The notes beneath the pieces were generated by a model that had not been told where the DNA came from, made no database searches, and saw only the letters and a list, made by a program, of their open reading frames with translations. A program made the translations under genes and the position numbers. DNA of 26,260 nucleotides. It comes from a virus. Below are positions 4,512 through 13,804 of the stretch, in pieces. The stretch is from positions 1-26,260 of the IMG/VR virus record IMGVR_UViG_3300024343_000102. The stretch is one strand, 5' to 3'. Every line of letters begins with the position of its first letter. The stretch's first letter is position 1.

Positions 4512-5129
4512 TTAAATAGGTTTGAATAAGCCCAATGATTTTAAATAGTCTATATCTCCCATCTTTTGTTTTTTATCAGACTTATATAAATCAATCATTT
4601 CATCAGCTCCAGTCGCCGCTGTACCTAAAGAACTAAACGCACCCTCAATGGCAGCGTTTCTATTCTTCTCTGATTGAGCTCTAATGGCATTCTGCATTTG
4701 GATATCTCCAATACCAGCCATCCAATCACGCTCAGCTTTACGTGCCTCGATACCTGACTCAGCTTCAGCTTGCGCCATATCTCTTTGGAATTGTGTTTGA
4801 TTAGCTTGAGCTGCTAATGCCATGTCTTGCTCATTACCTGCCTGAGCTACCTGCCCAATACCACCAATGATACCTTCAGCTCCTACACCCTCAAGCGCCC
4901 CAACCATCTGAGCTTCTCTTTGAGACTGCTGTTGTTGAGCTAATTCAAAACCAAGCATAGGCGTCTGAACAGCCTTAAATGGATTAGTCTCTTTAATTTG
5001 CTTGAGTTGGTTTTTAGCTAGGTCTGCTGCTGATGCAGCTTGCTTCATGTCTTTGTTTGCCTTGATGGCTTGTGCGGCACTGAGACCTACGCCTCCTAAT
5101 GCCACTAATGTTGATGTTACTGCTGCCAT
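4512..5129 (-). CDS. Probable small internal virion protein (T7 gp14-like in character), 205 aa
   Basis: A complete 205-aa frame whose ATG overlaps the end of the acetyltransferase gene by 13 bases. Residues 1-22 form an Ala/Gly/Val-rich hydrophobic segment that could insert in a membrane. The middle is a long Ala/Gln/Glu-rich helix with repeated QAxAExxx-type spacing (about residues 95-165). The C-terminus carries a basic patch (KSDKKQK) and ends in the hydrophobic residues LGLFKPI. This build, a hydrophobic N-terminus followed by an Ala/Gln helix, is typical of the small internal core proteins of podoviruses that help form the DNA-ejection channel, such as T7 gp14. The similarity is in composition and genomic position, not a recognised sequence match. 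It lies first in a run of three probable ejection proteins. Confidence 0.75.
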   Translation of the reverse strand: MAAVTSTLVALGGVGLSAAQAIKANKDMKQAASAADLAKNQLKQIKETNPFKAVQTPMLGFELAQQQQSQREAQMVGALEGVGAEGIIGGIGQVAQAGNEQDMALAAQANQTQFQRDMAQAEAESGIEARKAERDWMAGIGDIQMQNAIRAQSEKNRNAAIEGAFSSLGTAATGADEMIDLYKSDKKQKMGDIDYLKSLGLFKPI

Positions 5130-5521
5130 ATCTTTATCATTTCAGTGCAGTTTTCAGATCCTTTTTCGAATCCACACTCTGCATAGTAGTTTATTAAGCT
5201 TTGGTTTTTAAGTGAGGTGTATACATACTTGCATCCATTTTCCTTAGCAACCTCCGATAGTGCGTTAATCAAAAGTAGAATAGCGTCCTTTCGGTCTTTA
5301 TCTTTATATTGAAAGTTAGATACAATAAACTCAACCCATGCTGTAGAGGAGTTGGTGAAGTATATAAATCCAGCGCAAATATCGATGCCTTCTTTTGTAA
5401 TCATCAGACCTCCACGGCCGTCCTGAGGTAGCATATCTTTAGGTGGCGGAGTCCATCTCCAGTCTTTCCACCATGACGCCAAAACATCGTAGTCGCGGTC
5501 ATCAAGATACCTAACTTCCAT
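5117..5521 (-). CDS. GNAT-family N-acetyltransferase-like protein, 134 aa
   Basis: A complete 134-aa frame. The N-terminal strand and helix (EVRYLDDRDYDVLASWWKDW) are followed by a WTPPPKDMLP turn. A central strand pair (DICAGFIYF and TAWVEFIVSN) precedes a helix starting near DRKDAILLLIN, which occupies the place of the acetyl-CoA-binding helix. The ending is the family's usual one: a strand (KYVYTSL), Asn-Gln, then YYAECGFEKG. Small GNATs with the same Trp-rich N-terminus occur near structural genes in many environmental phages. The acceptor is unknown and could be a virion protein, a host protein or a small molecule. A TAAATTTG box overlaps the upstream stop codon four bases before the ATG, so the gene may have its own promoter. 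The fold call is fairly sure; activity is not shown, since the canonical Q/RxxGxG/A loop is degenerate. Confidence 0.8.
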   Translation of the reverse strand: MEVRYLDDRDYDVLASWWKDWRWTPPPKDMLPQDGRGGLMITKEGIDICAGFIYFTNSSTAWVEFIVSNFQYKDKDRKDAILLLINALSEVAKENGCKYVYTSLKNQSLINYYAECGFEKGSENCTEMIKIWQQ

Positions 5522-5525
5522 GTAA

Positions 5526-5533
5526 CAAATTTA
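5526..5533 (-). promoter_or_regulatory. Bacteroidetes-type -7 box TAAATTTG before the acetyltransferase gene
   Basis: The minus strand reads TAAATTTG, its TAA being the stop of the upstream gene, then TTAC and the ATG at 5521. The geometry (box, four bases TTAy, ATG) is the same as at 6300-6307. It may be a promoter with a near-leaderless transcript or a translation-start context. Confidence 0.4.
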
Positions 5534-6295
5534 AGGAAAACTTTTGAATACTGATGTCTTGACAGCAAATAGCTCTATCTCACCTGTAGCTTCCCAAGCG
5601 CTTAATGAAAGTGTTAAGTTTAAATACCTACCTCTAGATCCGTAAGACTCTACAGATGATTTTTTATTTATGAATATATAGTCACCTGGATTCGGTGTGT
5701 TTACAAATCCACCGACTATTGATATTGAGCTTGTAGTAGATGATGTAACAGCTTGATTAATAGTACCGACAGCCATAATGTTTGTAATCTGACCAGAAAT
5801 ATTACTAGCCTTGTATACAAAATCACCTGGATTTATATTTGATATTGGAACGTTAAAAGATATAATAAGACCAGAGACACTAGATACTAAACCAACGCCT
5901 TGTACAGATAGAAGATCTAAATCCAACTGATTTTGTGGCCTTCTTATGTATGCAAAAAAGTCACCTTCTTTTTTAGAAAATTGAGCGCTATCTATTTGCA
6001 CTTGATCTAGGTCAGTAGATCCTAACACATCTAAAGCATTTGTACAGTCAAGATTCAAAGACTTAAACATCTTAGTCTCTACAGGTGATTCGTTTACTAT
6101 AGTCTCTATAGAAAAACCACCCGGTGTAGTTCCGTAAAATTGAGTTCTAGTTTGATTGGTATCATGTTGATATAGATTCCCACCTTTAAATGAATAGAAA
6201 GTACTATTAAGGCCAATCATCCACTCTGGGCGATAGGACCATCTAGAGGTCCAGCCCTCGGCCTTGTTAGAGAATGTAAGCGTATCTATAATCAT
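5531..6295 (-). CDS. C-terminal portion of the tail muzzle/stabilization-type protein, encoded as a separate gene, 254 aa
   Basis: A complete 254-aa frame with an ATG at 6295. It begins with TLTFSNKAEGWTSRWSYRPE, followed by FYSFKGGNLYQHD and a TRTQFYG motif. In the large tail proteins of environmental Bacteroidetes phages, as I remember them, this series (TxxFxxKxxGWxSxxSxxPE, Y.xKxGxLYxH, RxxFYG) occupies the C-terminal beta-rich part of one long polypeptide. The later segments KKEGDFFAYIRR and ELFAVKTSVFKSFP fit the same C-terminus. Here the part is on its own, about 3.6 kb beyond the end of the gene carrying the rest (9860-13804). It has its own start and a TAACTTTG box four bases before the ATG. 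Inference: it assembles with the larger protein at the tail. Alternatively it is an independent paralogue, which would need the larger protein to have its own complete C-terminus; I do not see one. Confidence 0.8.
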   Translation of the reverse strand: MIIDTLTFSNKAEGWTSRWSYRPEWMIGLNSTFYSFKGGNLYQHDTNQTRTQFYGTTPGGFSIETIVNESPVETKMFKSLNLDCTNALDVLGSTDLDQVQIDSAQFSKKEGDFFAYIRRPQNQLDLDLLSVQGVGLVSSVSGLIISFNVPISNINPGDFVYKASNISGQITNIMAVGTINQAVTSSTTSSISIVGGFVNTPNPGDYIFINKKSSVESYGSRGRYLNLTLSLSAWEATGEIELFAVKTSVFKSFP

Positions 6296-6313: not shown

Positions 6314-7231
6314 TTAGACCAAGCAGCTTTTCATGCTCTTGATCATCTCATAGTACCTATATGAGCATCTGTTTGGATCTAGCTGCAAGTCTGTTTCGAA
6401 TGGTATATTGTCCATATATGACGCCTTGTGAAACATGCCTTGTGTTGAATTAACGACACCGGCATTATGGAAAAAGTATAACTCATCCCATCGATCAGAC
6501 GGGCAGGTCGCCCAAGCAAAATCAAATTCTTTAGGCACCTCGACATGATGACCAAAAAACCAAGCGTTCCACAGCTCGGCCCACATGCTTGCCGTCCAGG
6601 CCTGTATGCCGTTCGGATCACCTTCCTTTCGGACGTGCTGCATCTCGGTCAATAGGTTGTATAAATCCTTGCTGTCTTGCTCAACTTTTCTCCAATAGTG
6701 CGATGTCAGATTCTTCATAAGCTTCTGAGCTCCTCCGCTATTATTCTTATTGAACTCAATTAGTTTTTTTGATATACCAACCTGACTACACATTTCATCT
6801 AAAACCTCTTCTCCCTTACTCATGATATAGTCGTAGCCTATGTATGATATAGTGTCTGAGAAGTACCATGTATCGTCCTGAAGATATGGAGTAAAGTCCA
6901 TGTACTTGGTAAAAACAAAGTCAGCGTCATGGAAAAAGAACGCATCGTTTGTTAGATCAGGATGCTTCTTGAAATGTTTTTGAAGCAAGTGCGCTTGAAT
7001 GGCAGGTGGGTAGTTGCATTCACCCATAGTGTCTTTATAGAAGAAGAATCTAGCTATGTCAGAGTAAGTCTGATAAAGCTTATTCCACGACTCTGGTATC
7101 TCATCTTGATACCCAGCTACAATGTCTATGTTCTTATAACCAAGGGATGCAAAGTTATGTATGCATACCTCAATCTGCCAAGCGTAGTAGTCAAGCGCAG
7201 GTTGCGCTGACAACATCCTAAGTGTCTTCAT
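6314..7231 (-). CDS. GT-A-type glycosyltransferase-like protein, 305 aa, coupled to the adhesin gene
   Basis: I chose the ATG at 7231, which forms TAATG with the stop of the adhesin gene; a TTG at 7237 would add only two residues. The N-terminus (YAWQIEVCIHNFASLGY, then IDIVAGY) fits the first strand-helix unit of a GT-A fold. FFFHDADFVF (residues about 99-108) supplies a hydrophobic strand ending in the DxD motif (D102, D104) expected to bind metal and sugar nucleotide. NNSGGAQ (163-169), a Trp-rich helix (about 209-221) and FFHNAGV (253-259) resemble acceptor-site and late metal-ligand regions of Golgi-type peptide glycosyltransferases. There is no signal peptide, so it should act in the host cytoplasm on newly made phage protein or on nucleotide-sugar acceptors. 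The neighbouring poly-Thr adhesin is the natural candidate substrate. The family is inferred from motifs; donor sugar and acceptor are unknown. Confidence 0.75.
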   Translation of the reverse strand: MKTLRMLSAQPALDYYAWQIEVCIHNFASLGYKNIDIVAGYQDEIPESWNKLYQTYSDIARFFFYKDTMGECNYPPAIQAHLLQKHFKKHPDLTNDAFFFHDADFVFTKYMDFTPYLQDDTWYFSDTISYIGYDYIMSKGEEVLDEMCSQVGISKKLIEFNKNNSGGAQKLMKNLTSHYWRKVEQDSKDLYNLLTEMQHVRKEGDPNGIQAWTASMWAELWNAWFFGHHVEVPKEFDFAWATCPSDRWDELYFFHNAGVVNSTQGMFHKASYMDNIPFETDLQLDPNRCSYRYYEMIKSMKSCLV

Positions 7232-9876
7232 TAGCAAGCTTTAGTCGCACCGGTCCAGTTAGACCCATTCCATTCGTATGCGACATTAATAATTAAATTC
7301 AAATACCAACCAGCAGGCGCAGGATCTGTGCCTAATAGATTTGTAAAGATAGAGTTTCCAGGCACACCTATGGCGCCATTGACGTAATAATTATCAATAT
7401 CAAGAACAGAACAAACTGTTGATTGTGAAGAAGAGTAAGACAACGTAAGCGTTGTTAATGGAGCTCTAGTTGTTGTGGTTGTAGTTGTTGTAGTTGTAGT
7501 CGTTGTTGATGTAGTTGTTGTAGTAGTGGTCGTTGTAGTGGCAGCACACTCAGAGCAACTTCCATAAGTGTAATATATGTCACCATTCTGAACGCCAGGT
7601 GATGCAGTAGCTGTAATCATAATGCAATCTCCATTGCTATCCTTCACGTAGTTAGGAAGCGATAGTGGCGCATATCCTTGATACCTCATCAATACAGCAG
7701 CACCGCCTACACATTTGGTACCATTATAGTAATAAGTAGGGATAGTAGTTGTAGTCGTCGTCGTTGTAACACCTGAGCAAGTTAATAGACTTAATATCTG
7801 ACCTGTATCAGCAATCAAACAAGCATAAGTAATACCTGACTTTCTAACTAAATACCACAAGAAGGCGCCATCGAATAACGTAGTGGCACCTGCATTGGTG
7901 TAAACAAAACTGTTTACTGCCAATGTTCCGGTATGGTAGTGCGTTACATATGTTGGTGTCGATGTGCAAGCTGATCTAGCTGTAGTAAATCCAGTAACAT
8001 CTAAATCAAAACCAGTTACAGGTGTTGACGTAGTGGTTGTACTAGTAGTTGTAGTAGTTGTAGTTCCAGTACATGCGGTGCAGTCGGCATACGTGACAAT
8101 AGGTGTGATGACATTATAGTATGGGAACGTTGCTGTAGTTGATCCATTTATTCTCCAGCAGTTTCCATCTGTAGTCTTAACTACTAATGAAGTAGTTATA
8201 GGCGTGCCTAATGAATTTCTTAACACAACAGTTAATGAATTATCAACACAAGACGTGGCTGTAAAATATGTACCGGCAGGAAGTGTAGTTGTGCTAGTTG
8301 TTGTAGTAGTTGTAGTTGTACCAGCACAAGTTGATTTTGCAATTATTGTACCCTCCTGATCAATCTGTACGCTATAATTAGAGTCATTAATCTGATACCA
8401 CTTTTTACCTCCCATAAATGGACGTAACCCTTCTGAGTCATAGAACACAGTATCTACTAGGTTTGGTATATACCCATCGCCATCAAAGTACATCAAGGTA
8501 AATGTTGGAATAACTAAACAAGCGTCAGCACCAGACTCTTTAAATTGCTCAACGTCAATTAAGAAAGGCTTCATGTTGCCTGGATCTGATACAGTGACAG
8601 ATATAATAGCTGACGAGCTAACGCCAAAGCAATTAGTAGCCCTTATTGTTATTGAGTAAATACCAGCAGGACAGTTCTCAAAGTATACAGTTCCATTTGA
8701 AAAAGTTGCTTGATTGGGTAACGTGCTTGAAAGTAAGTCCCATGACGTTGGGTTATTAATAACCTCTATACTTACACTTTCAGATGTATTTGTGTTAGCT
8801 GTGATTGGGTCTGCAATAATAAACGGAACAGCAAATTCAGAGCATGTGCAACTTTCTTTTGATAGAACTTCACCAGTCGAGCTTGCAGTTATATAATAAA
8901 TAGCTGATACACATGTATCTACTACATCAATTAAATGAAGGTATTCATCTCCAACATATACATCTAATCCAGTAAATGTAGAAAATAATTGATCTCCTAT
9001 ATTTGGAAGCGCATCCACACCATTATGATATATAGCAACATTAGGACATTGAGCGCAAACATTAGCAGCTGTGCCCTGATCTTCATCAATATAAAACTCA
9101 GTTAAATATGGATTAATTTTATTTACAATCCAAGTTGATCCACTGAATGGAGACGATACAATTAACCTTGCATCTTCAACTTGTAAATTCTTGTAAAACT
9201 CGACAGCTCCAACTCCATTATTAACTAAGCCATTATATGGAGCGACTAAGCCAATGTCTTCTGCTGGAATTCCTGCAGCTATTAATGCATTGTAATTTGA
9301 AGATGAGTTAAGTCCAACGTACTTGGTATCAACAACAATATCTCCATTCCATTCAATCTGATATCTAGTCGGCTGATCAGGATCAATGGTATTAAAACTA
9401 ATACCAGCTCTACCAATTCTATTGCCAAAATTCATATCGATTGACCGGCTATCAGTAGCGCCTTTATAAGATGCAACAGTGTCCATCTTGTCCTCATAAT
9501 CCCACAACAAGTATACATACTCGTAGTTATTTGGATTCAAGAATGTAAACTGACCTGTAAACACGCCTGCTGAATAAACGACTGGTATTTCGGTAGCTAA
9601 GCTAAGTATTGTTGTTTTGTCAGCTGCTGTATATGCAGTGTCTGAAACCAAATAGTATAGTTTATTACTTAACGTAGGTGCTAGTTGACGATAGTCAGAC
9701 AAGACATCACCTGCGACCACAGTGACAACAGATCCATTATATGGAACATAACCAACACCACCAATGCCTGTAGATGTATCGAATAGAGCAATAGCTCCAC
9801 CACTTAACACCACATTATCTATTGTATATGTTGAACTACCTGTATAGCTGAATGATTGCTTAGTTTTTGAACTCAT
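7231..9876 (-). CDS. Modular tail adhesin with poly-threonine linkers, probable receptor-binding protein, 881 aa
   Basis: A complete 881-aa frame; its start overlaps the muzzle gene by 17 bases. Residues 1 to about 260 are beta-rich with few cysteines and probably attach to the tail. From about 272 on the protein is built of Cys-bounded modules. Type B (about 70-80 residues, with an early Cys, YxxG, then a late strand ending in Cys) appears near 272-345, 439-517, 620-702 and 806-881. Type A (ending in a CxxC-like pair) appears near 532-603 and 712-778. An Ig/cadherin-like domain lies near 350-435 (AGIYSITIRATNCFG). Poly-Thr/Ser linkers at 520-531, 605-618, 704-711 and 780-803 separate the last five modules. 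No enzymatic motif is visible. The architecture resembles extended surface adhesins. Position after the muzzle gene and before a glycosyltransferase supports a host-contact role, possibly glycosylated. Function is inferred. Confidence 0.85.
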   Translation of the reverse strand: MSSKTKQSFSYTGSSTYTIDNVVLSGGAIALFDTSTGIGGVGYVPYNGSVVTVVAGDVLSDYRQLAPTLSNKLYYLVSDTAYTAADKTTILSLATEIPVVYSAGVFTGQFTFLNPNNYEYVYLLWDYEDKMDTVASYKGATDSRSIDMNFGNRIGRAGISFNTIDPDQPTRYQIEWNGDIVVDTKYVGLNSSSNYNALIAAGIPAEDIGLVAPYNGLVNNGVGAVEFYKNLQVEDARLIVSSPFSGSTWIVNKINPYLTEFYIDEDQGTAANVCAQCPNVAIYHNGVDALPNIGDQLFSTFTGLDVYVGDEYLHLIDVVDTCVSAIYYITASSTGEVLSKESCTCSEFAVPFIIADPITANTNTSESVSIEVINNPTSWDLLSSTLPNQATFSNGTVYFENCPAGIYSITIRATNCFGVSSSAIISVTVSDPGNMKPFLIDVEQFKESGADACLVIPTFTLMYFDGDGYIPNLVDTVFYDSEGLRPFMGGKKWYQINDSNYSVQIDQEGTIIAKSTCAGTTTTTTTTSTTTLPAGTYFTATSCVDNSLTVVLRNSLGTPITTSLVVKTTDGNCWRINGSTTATFPYYNVITPIVTYADCTACTGTTTTTTTSTTTTSTPVTGFDLDVTGFTTARSACTSTPTYVTHYHTGTLAVNSFVYTNAGATTLFDGAFLWYLVRKSGITYACLIADTGQILSLLTCSGVTTTTTTTTIPTYYYNGTKCVGGAAVLMRYQGYAPLSLPNYVKDSNGDCIMITATASPGVQNGDIYYTYGSCSECAATTTTTTTTTTSTTTTTTTTTTTTTRAPLTTLTLSYSSSQSTVCSVLDIDNYYVNGAIGVPGNSIFTNLLGTDPAPAGWYLNLIINVAYEWNGSNWTGATKAC
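7468..8319 (-). repeat. Four poly-Thr(Ser) linker tracts in the adhesin gene
   Basis: In-frame runs of ACN codons occur at 8284-8319 (12 residues), 8023-8064 (14), 7744-7767 (8) and 7468-7539 (24). All residues are Thr except one Ser in each of the first and last tracts and two Ser in the second. All four Thr codons are used within the longest tract. The tracts separate Cys-bounded modules. They behave as protein linkers rather than as a DNA tandem repeat with a fixed unit. Confidence 0.9.
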
Positions 9877-12800
9877 CTTTACCTAACGTTATAATATTAA
9901 AATCTGTTCTTGGACCACGTCCTTGAGTTAGTGTGTAGTCTACATATGTACTGCAGTAAAAAACTCTAACAATAACACTTCTCTGAGCGAGCGTGGTGTT
10001 GTTTTGAATTCTTCCATATATATTTTGAGCACCTACACCTGCTTGGCAGTAAGGAGGAAGCTCAACCCAGTTGGTTCCAAATCCATTATTAATCAATGTA
10101 ATTGACCAACTTGTTGTTCCTGATAATGCAAACAAATACTCAAGGTCTCCTGCTGTATTGTATGGGAAACTACCAGCTGTTGGATTGATTTGTATGTCGC
10201 AAGGTGTGTTTCTTCTAGATGTTGACGCAATGACGTAGTTGTGGTTATATGGATCGTATGCACCAAGTTTTGCCATGTTTGGAGTGCTGATCATTATATC
10301 TCTAAAATAGTCAGACATACCCATTCGAGATATCTGCATTACTTGGTCTCCTTGCATTTGCAAGACAACACCTCTCTTAGCATCGGTAAAATACATTCTA
10401 TCACTCCATGTAGCAAAGCTCTCTGGATTTGATGATATACCAAAATCATAAGGTAGTGCAATCTGCGTACCAAGTACCTCAGGAACTGAAGCCACTGACC
10501 CCCCACCTACGGCATCAACAAGTAAGTTTTTACCATATAAAACTGACGTGATTTTATCTTGGTGTAATACCACTAGGTCATTTGTTCTAGCGTAAAGTTT
10601 TTGGACAGTGCCAAAGTTTTTGTCTAAGTTTTTGAAGTTAGCAATAGATAAATTGAACTCATTTAATCTGTTAATTGATGAATCCCAACGATACAAGCCA
10701 CTGTATGTAACCGATGTGTCTTTTATCTGTTGCTCGTAGTCTTCAATAACACCGCTTGCACGTAGACTATACTTTAACCAAGGCTCATTAAAGCCATCTA
10801 ATATTCGGTTGGACTCAACACCATTTCCATAGCAATATGCGTTGTAGTCTGAGTTTTTATTGTCAGTGCTATTCAACTTAATAACAGCTTGATTTAAAGC
10901 ACCGGACTGATCTTGCTCTAAATTGCTGTTAGATATTTTACCTGGAGCTGATGAACCTGCTGCTATATTGATAGTTATTGAATATCTATCTGGCGTGGCA
11001 AGTACGGTATAATAGCCAGGAGGTATGTTTGAAGCTGTTACATAAACAGACTGTCCAACATCAAAATAATGCGGATGCTTTTTACCATTTTGAATAAGCG
11101 TAGTGTTTGCCGCAATTGTTGATACATCATAACTCCATAACACCAAGTGGTTGCCTATTTCAATTGGATATGTTCTACTCATTTCGTAGTAGATGTCCAC
11201 ATCGTCATTGGCAGGAACTGTCTCAGCTGAAAGTTTAGAATTAGATGGAGTCTGACTTACTTTTATATCTACTTTTATTTCATTCCTACTACTTCCGCTA
11301 TTTTCGCCAAATCCCCTTATAAGCATCCACTTATCAGAACTTGCCGTATTCATCTCAATTACATTACTAGTAAATGAGAATGTACTGAAGTTTTGAGTTA
11401 CATCAATAGCTTCTCTAAATATAACTGTAGATGCATTTACATTTGTACCACTTTGGGTATATTGATTAAACGAAGCATAAGCACCTGACTGCCAAAACCA
11501 CTCTTCTATATCTTTATAGTACTTATCAGCTACCCATGACATTGATGAGGCATTTTGACTAGTTCCATTTATAGGAGCTCCATCATTTAATATGTTTATA
11601 GATATGTCAGCTCCAGGAAAAATTGCACCAGGTCCTTTTATGGCAGCATGTCCACCATATATACTTGGATCATAACCAGCAAGGTATTGTCCTGGAGGGG
11701 TTGCTGATGAGTTATATACAGGGTCAGGTATCCCATATCCTCCAGTTCCATTTGGTAATGGTGTACCTTTAAATTGACCGCTTCCCCTTACATTTATAAC
11801 CCACTTGTCTCCTACATTGTACCCCAAAGAAGCATCGAATGAAAGCACAACATTAGTATCACCTGATGTTAATGTTGTTGGAGATGTGCTTATTGGTAAG
11901 TTTGCTAACCACCAACTTTGTGACACATCTGTAGTCCATCTAAATGTAGTTGAGCTTACTATTTCTATAGAAATTCTAACATCTGACAATGATGATGATG
12001 TCAATTGATCTATAGATATTCCAGGGCCTGTGTTGACTAATGTAGTGTCACCTGTTGCTGAATAATATATAGGTGGAGGTATATAAAAAATACCGTTTTG
12101 TAATACTGAAGGAGTTTGAGGTCCTGAACTATTATTATCAGGACCACGTCCACTTCCTTGAAAAGCAAATGTAACTTGACTAGGAATATCTAAAAATGTA
12201 TCAACAGCTTCCGCTTTTATTTTAAAATATAAACCCTCTGGGGCATTTGTAATAAATCCAGCTATTTTCTGTTCAAGTTCAAGTACCTTAAACTGCTTAT
12301 TTGAGTTGGTTGGTAATCCAGAAGCAGACTTAAATATAATGTAACCATTAACCTTAATCTTATCTCTATCAGCTTCATTAATCAAGAAATATCTGAAGTT
12401 ATCTTTTTTAAAGAATGTAATAGGAAATAGATTATAATATTCAGTCTTTGACTGCTTTACAAATAGTCTATATCCGGTTGCCCACTTTGGCGCCTCATTC
12501 TTAATGCTAACAATTAATGAGTTTGCTGTGCTTGAGTTAGCTGAAGGTATGTATATTGAGTTGGATAAGTCATTAACTGAGTTGTCATTAGTAGTAGTCA
12601 ATACGGTTGTCATTCGACCATAGTCATCTAAGTAGGCAATACCAATCTCGTAGTCGCGATCACTTCTCCAAGTTTGTTTAGGATTAGACGTGATTGGTTC
12701 ATCTACATACTTAACTGTGTAATCAATGTCAATGAAATCATTTGTATTGTATCCAATTAAATCTCTAAACTGAGTATAGTTACCCATAATTAGTCGACTA

Positions 12801-13804
12801 CCTATAATGTCTTGGGCTAATGCCTTGATTGGTACGTTATCAAATAATCTTGTAACCTGATCAGAAGAAAGAGCTGCATAGGTCTTGTTATTCATAAAGT
12901 AAAAACTATAATCAGAGTTATCTGGTATACTTAGTTCTTCTTTATTTAATGTCTCAACTATTTTTACGTTTAACGTCCTAGACTCCCAAACCAATAATTG
13001 AATCTCTTTTACAAACTCATTACCAGTCTCAAATGTAACCTGCACTTGGTTAAATTGATTGAGCATTCCCTTATTGTCACCAGTCTCTGTATCAATTTGC
13101 AACATCTTTGGATTAAATGCGGCAGCAGAAAGTGGAGACATTGAAGAGTATTCATTGTCTAAATATTTATATCGATAGCTAAAGTAAACGAATTTATCCT
13201 CAATGTTGTTGGGATTAGAGCTTGATGTTGTCTGTGTGCTTAACGATATGAATGGAGAGTTAAGGGGAGGCGCAACAATTAAGTTTATGTCATCATCAAT
13301 CCTAGGATCATCAACACTATAAGTCTTGCATCTATTGATGTTAATCTTTCTAGGTGGGTTTAAATTGTCATTCCAAATAAGAAGCCCTCCGCCATTACCG
13401 TCGGTAACGTAGTTAACTCCTGTAATTAGGTAGTTAGCATCAAATCCAAGTTGATTAGTGGTACTACCTAATACTAACAATGATGTGTTCGTAACTTGGT
13501 TGTGCTCAAATATACCCTCAAAGTTATCAGCCTTCACAAACCAATAAAGAAGATTCTCAGCCTCAACTGAAAGAGCTCCAATAGCAACAGCATTTACAGG
13601 TGTGGGTACTTGATATGCAGAAAGAATAGCCGCAATATTTGTCTTTAATGTATTACCTAAGGCATTCTGAACGGCACCAATATTTGATCCCTCAGATGTG
13701 TCAATAGTAATATTGAGCGCATCACGGTATTCGCCATCCGGTACCAATCTCTCGTCGAGATCTTTGTTCATCCTACCGGCAAGAAATGTTCTTTGAAACT
13801 CCAT
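9860..13804 (-). CDS. Large tail muzzle/stabilization-type protein with C-terminal BACON-like domain, 1314 aa
   Basis: A complete 1314-aa frame whose ATG directly follows the stop of the upstream connector gene. The N-terminus has the motif RMNKDLDERLVPDGEYRDALNI and then SEGSNIGAVQNALGN, which I recognise from the largest tail structural protein of many environmental and crAss-like Bacteroidetes phages. The middle is long, beta-rich, and Ser/Asn/Thr-heavy. Near residues 1190-1200 the sequence GAYDPYNHNYVIAS appears, which in relatives leads into a further C-terminal beta domain. Here it instead leads into a BACON-like domain (about 1203-1298) and then stops. The expected remainder is a separate gene at 5531-6295. 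The protein probably forms the tail tube/muzzle distal to the portal. The name is by analogy with crAss-like tail proteins; homology should be confirmed by profile search. Confidence 0.85.
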   Translation of the reverse strand: MEFQRTFLAGRMNKDLDERLVPDGEYRDALNITIDTSEGSNIGAVQNALGNTLKTNIAAILSAYQVPTPVNAVAIGALSVEAENLLYWFVKADNFEGIFEHNQVTNTSLLVLGSTTNQLGFDANYLITGVNYVTDGNGGGLLIWNDNLNPPRKININRCKTYSVDDPRIDDDINLIVAPPLNSPFISLSTQTTSSSNPNNIEDKFVYFSYRYKYLDNEYSSMSPLSAAAFNPKMLQIDTETGDNKGMLNQFNQVQVTFETGNEFVKEIQLLVWESRTLNVKIVETLNKEELSIPDNSDYSFYFMNNKTYAALSSDQVTRLFDNVPIKALAQDIIGSRLIMGNYTQFRDLIGYNTNDFIDIDYTVKYVDEPITSNPKQTWRSDRDYEIGIAYLDDYGRMTTVLTTTNDNSVNDLSNSIYIPSANSSTANSLIVSIKNEAPKWATGYRLFVKQSKTEYYNLFPITFFKKDNFRYFLINEADRDKIKVNGYIIFKSASGLPTNSNKQFKVLELEQKIAGFITNAPEGLYFKIKAEAVDTFLDIPSQVTFAFQGSGRGPDNNSSGPQTPSVLQNGIFYIPPPIYYSATGDTTLVNTGPGISIDQLTSSSLSDVRISIEIVSSTTFRWTTDVSQSWWLANLPISTSPTTLTSGDTNVVLSFDASLGYNVGDKWVINVRGSGQFKGTPLPNGTGGYGIPDPVYNSSATPPGQYLAGYDPSIYGGHAAIKGPGAIFPGADISINILNDGAPINGTSQNASSMSWVADKYYKDIEEWFWQSGAYASFNQYTQSGTNVNASTVIFREAIDVTQNFSTFSFTSNVIEMNTASSDKWMLIRGFGENSGSSRNEIKVDIKVSQTPSNSKLSAETVPANDDVDIYYEMSRTYPIEIGNHLVLWSYDVSTIAANTTLIQNGKKHPHYFDVGQSVYVTASNIPPGYYTVLATPDRYSITINIAAGSSAPGKISNSNLEQDQSGALNQAVIKLNSTDNKNSDYNAYCYGNGVESNRILDGFNEPWLKYSLRASGVIEDYEQQIKDTSVTYSGLYRWDSSINRLNEFNLSIANFKNLDKNFGTVQKLYARTNDLVVLHQDKITSVLYGKNLLVDAVGGGSVASVPEVLGTQIALPYDFGISSNPESFATWSDRMYFTDAKRGVVLQMQGDQVMQISRMGMSDYFRDIMISTPNMAKLGAYDPYNHNYVIASTSRRNTPCDIQINPTAGSFPYNTAGDLEYLFALSGTTSWSITLINNGFGTNWVELPPYCQAGVGAQNIYGRIQNNTTLAQRSVIVRVFYCSTYVDYTLTQGRGPRTDFNIITLGKDEFKN
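9900..10200 (-). other. BACON-like domain at the C-terminus of the muzzle protein
   Basis: Within residues about 1203-1298, the segment running from FALSGTTSWSITL through NWVELPP, QNNTTLAQRSVIVRV and YTLTQG follows the BACON plan: a Trp on an early strand, a second Trp-containing strand before a Pro turn, Asn-x-Thr then Arg, a hydrophobic strand, and a final TQG. BACON domains are typical of Bacteroidetes surface proteins and were noted in crAssphage, where they are thought to bind glycans or mucin. The domain starts where the usual C-terminal muzzle region would be expected. The motif match is by eye. Confidence 0.6.

Follow-up and report, generated by a model that had tools for sequence, protein, structure and literature searches.

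A glycosyltransferase-like phage enzyme paired with poly-threonine tracts: a proposed virion-glycosylation cassette

In the 26,260-nucleotide stretch of DNA analysed here (hereafter the window; positions 1 to 26,260 of the IMG/VR virus record IMGVR_UViG_3300024343_000102), a gene for a modular protein with threonine (Thr) tracts is directly followed by a gene for a glycosyltransferase-like enzyme of the family phrog_4417. We propose that this enzyme is very probably a dedicated cytoplasmic O-glycosyltransferase, which glycosylates the poly-Thr tracts of virion proteins, and that phages of two bacterial phyla very likely use it for sugar-coating parts of their particles. More broadly, phrog_4417 probably represents a widespread mobile virion-glycosylation system, which combines a portable poly-Thr tag on any structural protein with one dedicated O-glycosyltransferase, occurs in phages of Bacteroidota and Bacillota, and is related to the glycosyltransferases of lanthipeptide-type peptides. 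The features of the pair are as follows:

7231..9876, minus strand: poly-Thr protein, 881 amino acids, modular, the proposed acceptor (sequence; AlphaFold2 model)
7229..7233, minus strand: TAATG stop-start overlap between the poly-Thr stop and the enzyme start (sequence)
6314..7231, minus strand: glycosyltransferase-like enzyme, 305 amino acids (phrog_4417; GT-A fold in the predicted structure)

Both open reading frames (ORFs) lie where a preliminary description of this DNA had placed them, and the sequence confirms its claim that the enzyme start is formed within the TAATG; the length of 305 amino acids assumes this ATG, the program-made ORF list having given an upstream TTG instead. TAATG is also the commonest overlap type among relatives, as it occurs at 53 of the 140 scored family loci (TGATG, 6; ATGA, 3; different spacing, 78), and a one-base overlap likewise joins the major tail protein gene of the Enterococcus phage phiFL1A to the homologous enzyme gene.

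Homologues of the enzyme were gathered from a phage collection, viral contigs and bacterial genomes (loci are numbered with the prefix L), and the neighbouring ORFs were scored for a Thr tract, defined as a Thr/Ser run of at least seven residues with at least 60% Thr. Such a tract occurred in 140/151 ORFs located directly upstream of the enzyme, as compared with 48/1497 other ORFs of the enzyme loci, and with 1/689 and 0/138 ORFs of enzyme-less crAss-like and Enterococcus loci, respectively. Co-occurrence had been set beforehand as a test by the preliminary description, and it is borne out both by the joint gains and losses described below and by the finding that 54/59 enzyme-family members lie near a Thr-tract protein (non-redundancy at 80% identity, tract protein within 3.5 kb, runs of at least six counted). 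The remaining five members are cellular and lie in lanthipeptide-type peptide gene clusters. Two loci (L007 and L138) considered as exceptions to the pairing were rejected as such, both having interrupted Thr tails. Bacterial genomes seldom contain the family (5/397 and 2/395 in two draws), and in the draw of 397 genomes, taken from one order, all five members have a Thr-tailed neighbour, one of them being the centre genome that was already counted.

The Thr-tract partners are diverse, since they sort into 28 sequence clusters that include the major tail proteins of phiFL1A, phage 1706 and Semele, the major head protein of phiFL1A, adhesin-like proteins of crAss-like and other phages, and two proteins of the Chryseobacterium phage MA9V-3. 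The enzyme homologues are encoded next to, or not far from, genes for major tail, major head, muzzle or other virion structural proteins and, in Bacillota phages, the Thr tracts paired with the enzyme are C-terminal tails of major tail and major head proteins. Thus, the preliminary description was right in pairing the glycosyltransferase with a Thr-rich partner, and too narrow in regarding an adhesin as the specific acceptor. As a separate observation, Bacillota prophages (L118, L122, L124, L129, L135 and similar ones) carry up to three Thr-tailed structural proteins each, namely the major tail protein, a small head-region protein and the major head protein.

An alternative explanation is that the tracts serve simply as flexible linkers or tails, that the enzyme acts elsewhere (on a cell-wall polymer, teichoic acid or phage DNA), and that the two genes are merely neighbours. 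Poly-Thr proteins with no enzyme nearby are indeed common, and phage glycosyltransferases that target host polymers or DNA are generally well established (PMC12619734). We nevertheless regard this explanation as improbable; the following lines of evidence speak either against it or in favour of our proposal. First, Enterococcus-type major tail proteins (65-100% identical) were fetched regardless of the enzyme, yielding three loci that have it and 11 that lack it (the head protein being covered in 10 of these 11), and the major tail protein as well as the major head protein bore Thr tails in 3/3 of the former and 0/11 of the latter (Fisher 0.003). The bodies of these tail and head proteins align closely, the gain or loss being confined to the Thr tail, and the tailed major head protein follows this rule even though some 2 kb separate its gene from that of the enzyme. 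Second, crAss-like loci were fetched via an unrelated gene, the enzyme-less ones being counted only if they span the region, and poly-Thr was found in 3/3 loci with the enzyme and 0/35 without it (Fisher about 1e-4); these p-values, like that for Enterococcus, serve as guides only, as the loci of each set are related. In one of the crAss-like loci (L170), the poly-Thr and enzyme genes are jointly missing between unchanged flanking genes. Third, the enzyme gene of bIL285 (orf45), a prophage of L. lactis IL1403, adjoins that of the major head protein, yet the Thr tail, with nine consecutive Thr near the C-terminus, is borne by a tail protein (orf50) encoded 1.3 kb away. Fourth, the factor common to the 28 partner families, in hosts of two phyla, is the Thr tract itself.

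Turning to the poly-Thr protein of the window, the 58 near-pure Thr/Ser residues announced by the preliminary description were counted exactly (54 Thr and 4 Ser), and they are distributed over four near-pure tracts:

8284..8319, minus strand: Thr tract 1, 12 residues (520-531; sequence)
8023..8064, minus strand: Thr tract 2, 14 residues (605-618; sequence)
7744..7767, minus strand: Thr tract 3, 8 residues (704-711; sequence)
7468..7539, minus strand: Thr tract 4, 24 residues (780-803; sequence)

The small domains separated by the tracts alternate between a type A (434-519, 619-703 and 804-881) and a type B (532-604 and 712-779), and the resulting pattern of beta domains, A-T-B-T-A-T-B-T-A, spans window positions 7231-8577 on the minus strand. 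In the AlphaFold2 model, the compact beta domains mostly score 80-90, and scores below 50 occur at stretches including 519-531, 605-617, 703-711 and 781-803, matching the positions of the Thr tracts. The name "adhesin" given to this protein by the preliminary description finds an echo in its long beta-domain architecture, but not in the family profile searches, which returned no match to an adhesin family; a fold search gave only generic Ig/cadherin-like multidomain matches, which were not used.

All four Thr codons are intermixed in the window tracts and, 19 related contigs (which are partly non-independent) differ from the window in their tract codons by 456 synonymous changes and 34 Thr/Ser swaps, with almost constant tract lengths near 12/12-14/8/24. 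The search pattern admits only Thr/Ser by design, and it is the kept lengths that show interruptions to be few. A microsatellite was considered as the main origin of the tracts and rejected, because the codons are mixed and the protein identity is conserved. Hence, from this combination of codon drift and kept Thr/Ser, selection appears to act on the hydroxyl residues rather than on DNA repeats.

The enzyme matches phrog_4417, a family with no named function, with an E-value of 1.1e-67 (residues 5-301 on positions 2-292 of the 293-position profile). It yielded no Pfam match at E ≤ 1 and no NCBIfam match, and its 41 diverse homologues (29-75% identical to the window protein) yielded no named glycosyltransferase family at E ≤ 0.1. 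Its AlphaFold2 model (pLDDT, predicted local distance difference test, 96.3) has a Rossmann-like GT-A fold, and the best rows of its comparison with VIA are glycogenin, LgtC and the UGGT catalytic domain (for glycogenin-1: Z 14.9, 219 residues, 3.5 Å); Z was at least 8 for 823 of the 998 chains compared, the best rows all being GT-A enzymes. In the fold check proposed by the preliminary description, the modelled enzyme is thus near to protein-modifying glycosyltransferases such as glycogenin and the UGGT catalytic domain, in support of its interpretation. DNA glucosyltransferases are absent from the top 50 fold rows of the PDB, an absence which excludes nothing. The putative active-site features are as follows:

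6920..6928, minus strand: DxD motif D102-A-D104, putative metal/nucleotide-sugar site (conservation and model)
6467..6469, minus strand: H255 of HNAG, putative third metal ligand (conservation; inferred from its position)

The DxD motif reported by the preliminary description occupies, within FFHDADFVF, residues 99-107 of the enzyme. Both D102 and D104 are invariant in the 41 homologues, and the motif sits between two core strands of the model; H255, G258 and K269 are each at least 90% conserved. The near-C-terminal motif of GT8 enzymes, H-x2-G-x2-K(PW), does not fit the H255-x2-G258-x10-K269 arrangement of the present family and, since a sequence match is lacking as well, we do not assign the enzyme to GT8. 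No signal sequence is evident at its N-terminus (MKTLRMLSAQPALDYY), as judged without a signal-peptide program.

The five members without a Thr tract (L115, L120, L123, L148 and L155) are chromosomal genes of Bacteroidota (Niabella, Pedobacter (two), Mucilaginibacter and Arachidicoccus). Their loci contain a LanB dehydratase (three loci), a LanC-like protein (four), C39 peptidase-ABC transporters (three) and small ORFs with GG leaders, which suggests clusters for glycosylated ribosomal peptides. From this lanthipeptide-type setting, peptides are likely the acceptors there too, and an independent hint comes from GenBank, where the member of phage 9183 is noted as homologous to a PqqD-family peptide-modification chaperone. 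When 56 members were placed in a tree, the 50 tract-associated phage or prophage sequences other than L154, which has a long branch, grouped together (99/99), and the five cellular ones fell outside this group. Two of these cellular members contain a second, fused glycosyltransferase domain (Glyco_transf_7C) and a third, L155, has this domain encoded by the next gene, suggesting that glycans of the family may be built in two steps. This feature favours the idea that the enzyme primes the tracts with one sugar, which host or other phage enzymes extend, the property conferred then coming from a host-dependent glycan. We consider this a possible but rather unlikely scenario, as family profile searches recognised no second glycosyltransferase among the genes adjoining the window pair; it would in any case be a variant of the proposed O-glycosylation of the tracts and not a contradiction of it.

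Several points weigh against the proposed O-glycosyltransferase. The loci compared are related by descent, so that the counts given above are not counts of independent events. A reverse scan for poly-Thr DNA found a real tract protein at 93 loci. Of these, 62 have at least 1.2 kb of downstream sequence, and the enzyme was present in only 10 of the 62; thus, poly-Thr does not imply the enzyme, whereas the enzyme nearly always implies poly-Thr. Searches with Pfam, NCBIfam and PDB sequences gave nothing useful towards a named glycosyltransferase family, and Foldseek, which agrees with VIA, gave only moderate TM-scores (0.4-0.5) to solved glycosyltransferases. Finally, the enzyme might be an inactive protein with a glycosyltransferase fold, serving as a chaperone or a binder of Thr tracts. 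This last possibility seems to us highly improbable, because an invariant DxD and a C-terminal histidine conserved in at least 90% of 41 members, down to 29% identity, are as expected of a working enzyme.

In the poly-Thr loci that do have the enzyme, it is a recurrent neighbour, usually about 25 bp or less from the tract gene. In those devoid of it, five other neighbours match GT2, one matches PF11397, and most loci have no recognised enzyme. These other glycosyltransferases (GT2, and PF11397 of the GlcNAc type) lie within about 2 kb of the poly-Thr proteins in unrelated phages (L258, L329, L332 and L340), the gap between the two genes being only 12 bp in L329 and L340, and the few loci concerned suggest convergent pairings. 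Independently, enzyme-less poly-Thr genes (in L259, L262, L280, L287, L297, L323, L325 and others) recurrently precede peptidase or peptidoglycan-binding genes (VanY, PG_binding), mostly situated 0.25-0.6 kb downstream.

Profile matches to the Crassvirus muzzle C-terminal domain and to crAss-like virion and terminase families give the virus record crAss-like features. The minus-strand gene order is the 1314-amino-acid virion structural protein, the 881-amino-acid poly-Thr protein, the 305-amino-acid enzyme and the muzzle-like protein, and the two genes flanking the pair are as follows:

9860..13804, minus strand: virion structural protein, 1314 amino acids (phrog_14478, E 9e-184)
5531..6295, minus strand: Crassvirus muzzle C-terminal-domain protein (PF25729, E 1.4e-9)

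The muzzle-domain gene indicates that the module is a virion structural one and that the phage is crAss-like. In seven related loci (L089-L091, L097, L099, L102 and L113), the poly-Thr protein is fused with the homologue of the upstream virion structural protein into an ORF of about 2,070-2,195 amino acids, and such a fusion makes a virion role likely for the poly-Thr protein. Two genes past the enzyme lies a GNAT-acetyltransferase-like gene (phrog_17252; 5117-5521, minus strand), which is retained in most crAss-like relatives.

We propose that the poly-Thr protein and the enzyme operate as a two-part virion-glycosylation cassette. The enzyme, as a cytoplasmic GT-A glycosyltransferase dependent on a metal and a nucleotide-sugar, would be made together with its partner and would attach sugar to Thr/Ser hydroxyls in the tracts, either ahead of virion assembly or in its course, so that the "self-glycosylating" adhesin of the preliminary description reads better as a protein glycosylated by its neighbour. 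We infer that a glycan is attached with the Thr tracts as the acceptor; by analogy with GT8-like folds, the glycosidic linkage would be of the retaining (alpha) type, and the glycan may shield or stiffen the particle. In the phage of the window, the outcome would be sugar-coated extended linkers joining the beta domains of the poly-Thr protein and, in other phages, major tail and head proteins with C-terminal tails coated in sugar. If true, this proposal would give a function to the unannotated phage family phrog_4417, tie phage virion glycosylation to glycosylated ribosomal peptides, and provide a sequence rule (Thr tract plus phrog_4417) predicting glycosylated virions, a rule that is testable now as the culturable Lactococcus phages bIL285 and 1706 and Enterococcus phage phiFL1A have the pair.

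We found no description of the phrog_4417 family or of its pairing with Thr tracts in the open-access literature (subscription papers being outside the search), and four aspects appear to be new: the enzyme family, the use of a poly-Thr tag as portable acceptor, the range of hosts and the connection with peptide natural-product clusters. Regarding known enzymes, glycogenin (GT8) and UGGT (GT24) resemble the window enzyme in overall fold, in the position of the DxD and in having a late histidine followed by conserved glycine and lysine, whereas the latter differs by its 6-10% sequence identity to them, its lack of a Pfam match and its H-x2-G-x10-K spacing. The PF11397 (GlcNAc) and GT2 pairs also place a glycosyltransferase beside a poly-Thr phage protein, but they belong to other Pfam families and to few loci. 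GtfA/GtfB are GT-B enzymes from bacteria that possess an export system, unlike the present phage GT-A enzyme, the acceptors of which would be assembled into virions. They are comparable in that serine-rich-repeat adhesins (GtfA/GtfB, accessory Sec) are encoded beside glycosyltransferases and undergo cytoplasmic O-glycosylation of low-complexity Ser/Thr stretches (PMC6973325, PMC7948813). The closest precedent is the virion glycosylation of mycobacteriophages. Freeman et al. (2023) reportedly dealt with this glycosylation in Che8, Corndog and Myrna. In these three mycobacteriophages, phage-encoded glycosyltransferases modify phage structural proteins, and the glycans are carried by capsid and tail-tube subunits at their C-termini (PMC12619734, PMC12363180), which is also where the Thr tails of Bacillota phages are located. 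Virion glycans of mycobacteriophages are reported to change antibody recognition (PMC12363180) and, by this precedent, glycans could affect how hosts or proteases meet the phages of gut and food bacteria. The present system differs from that of mycobacteriophages by its phrog_4417 enzyme, its dedicated poly-Thr tracts, its Bacteroidota and Bacillota hosts, and its probable use also of the inter-domain linkers of an adhesin-like protein.

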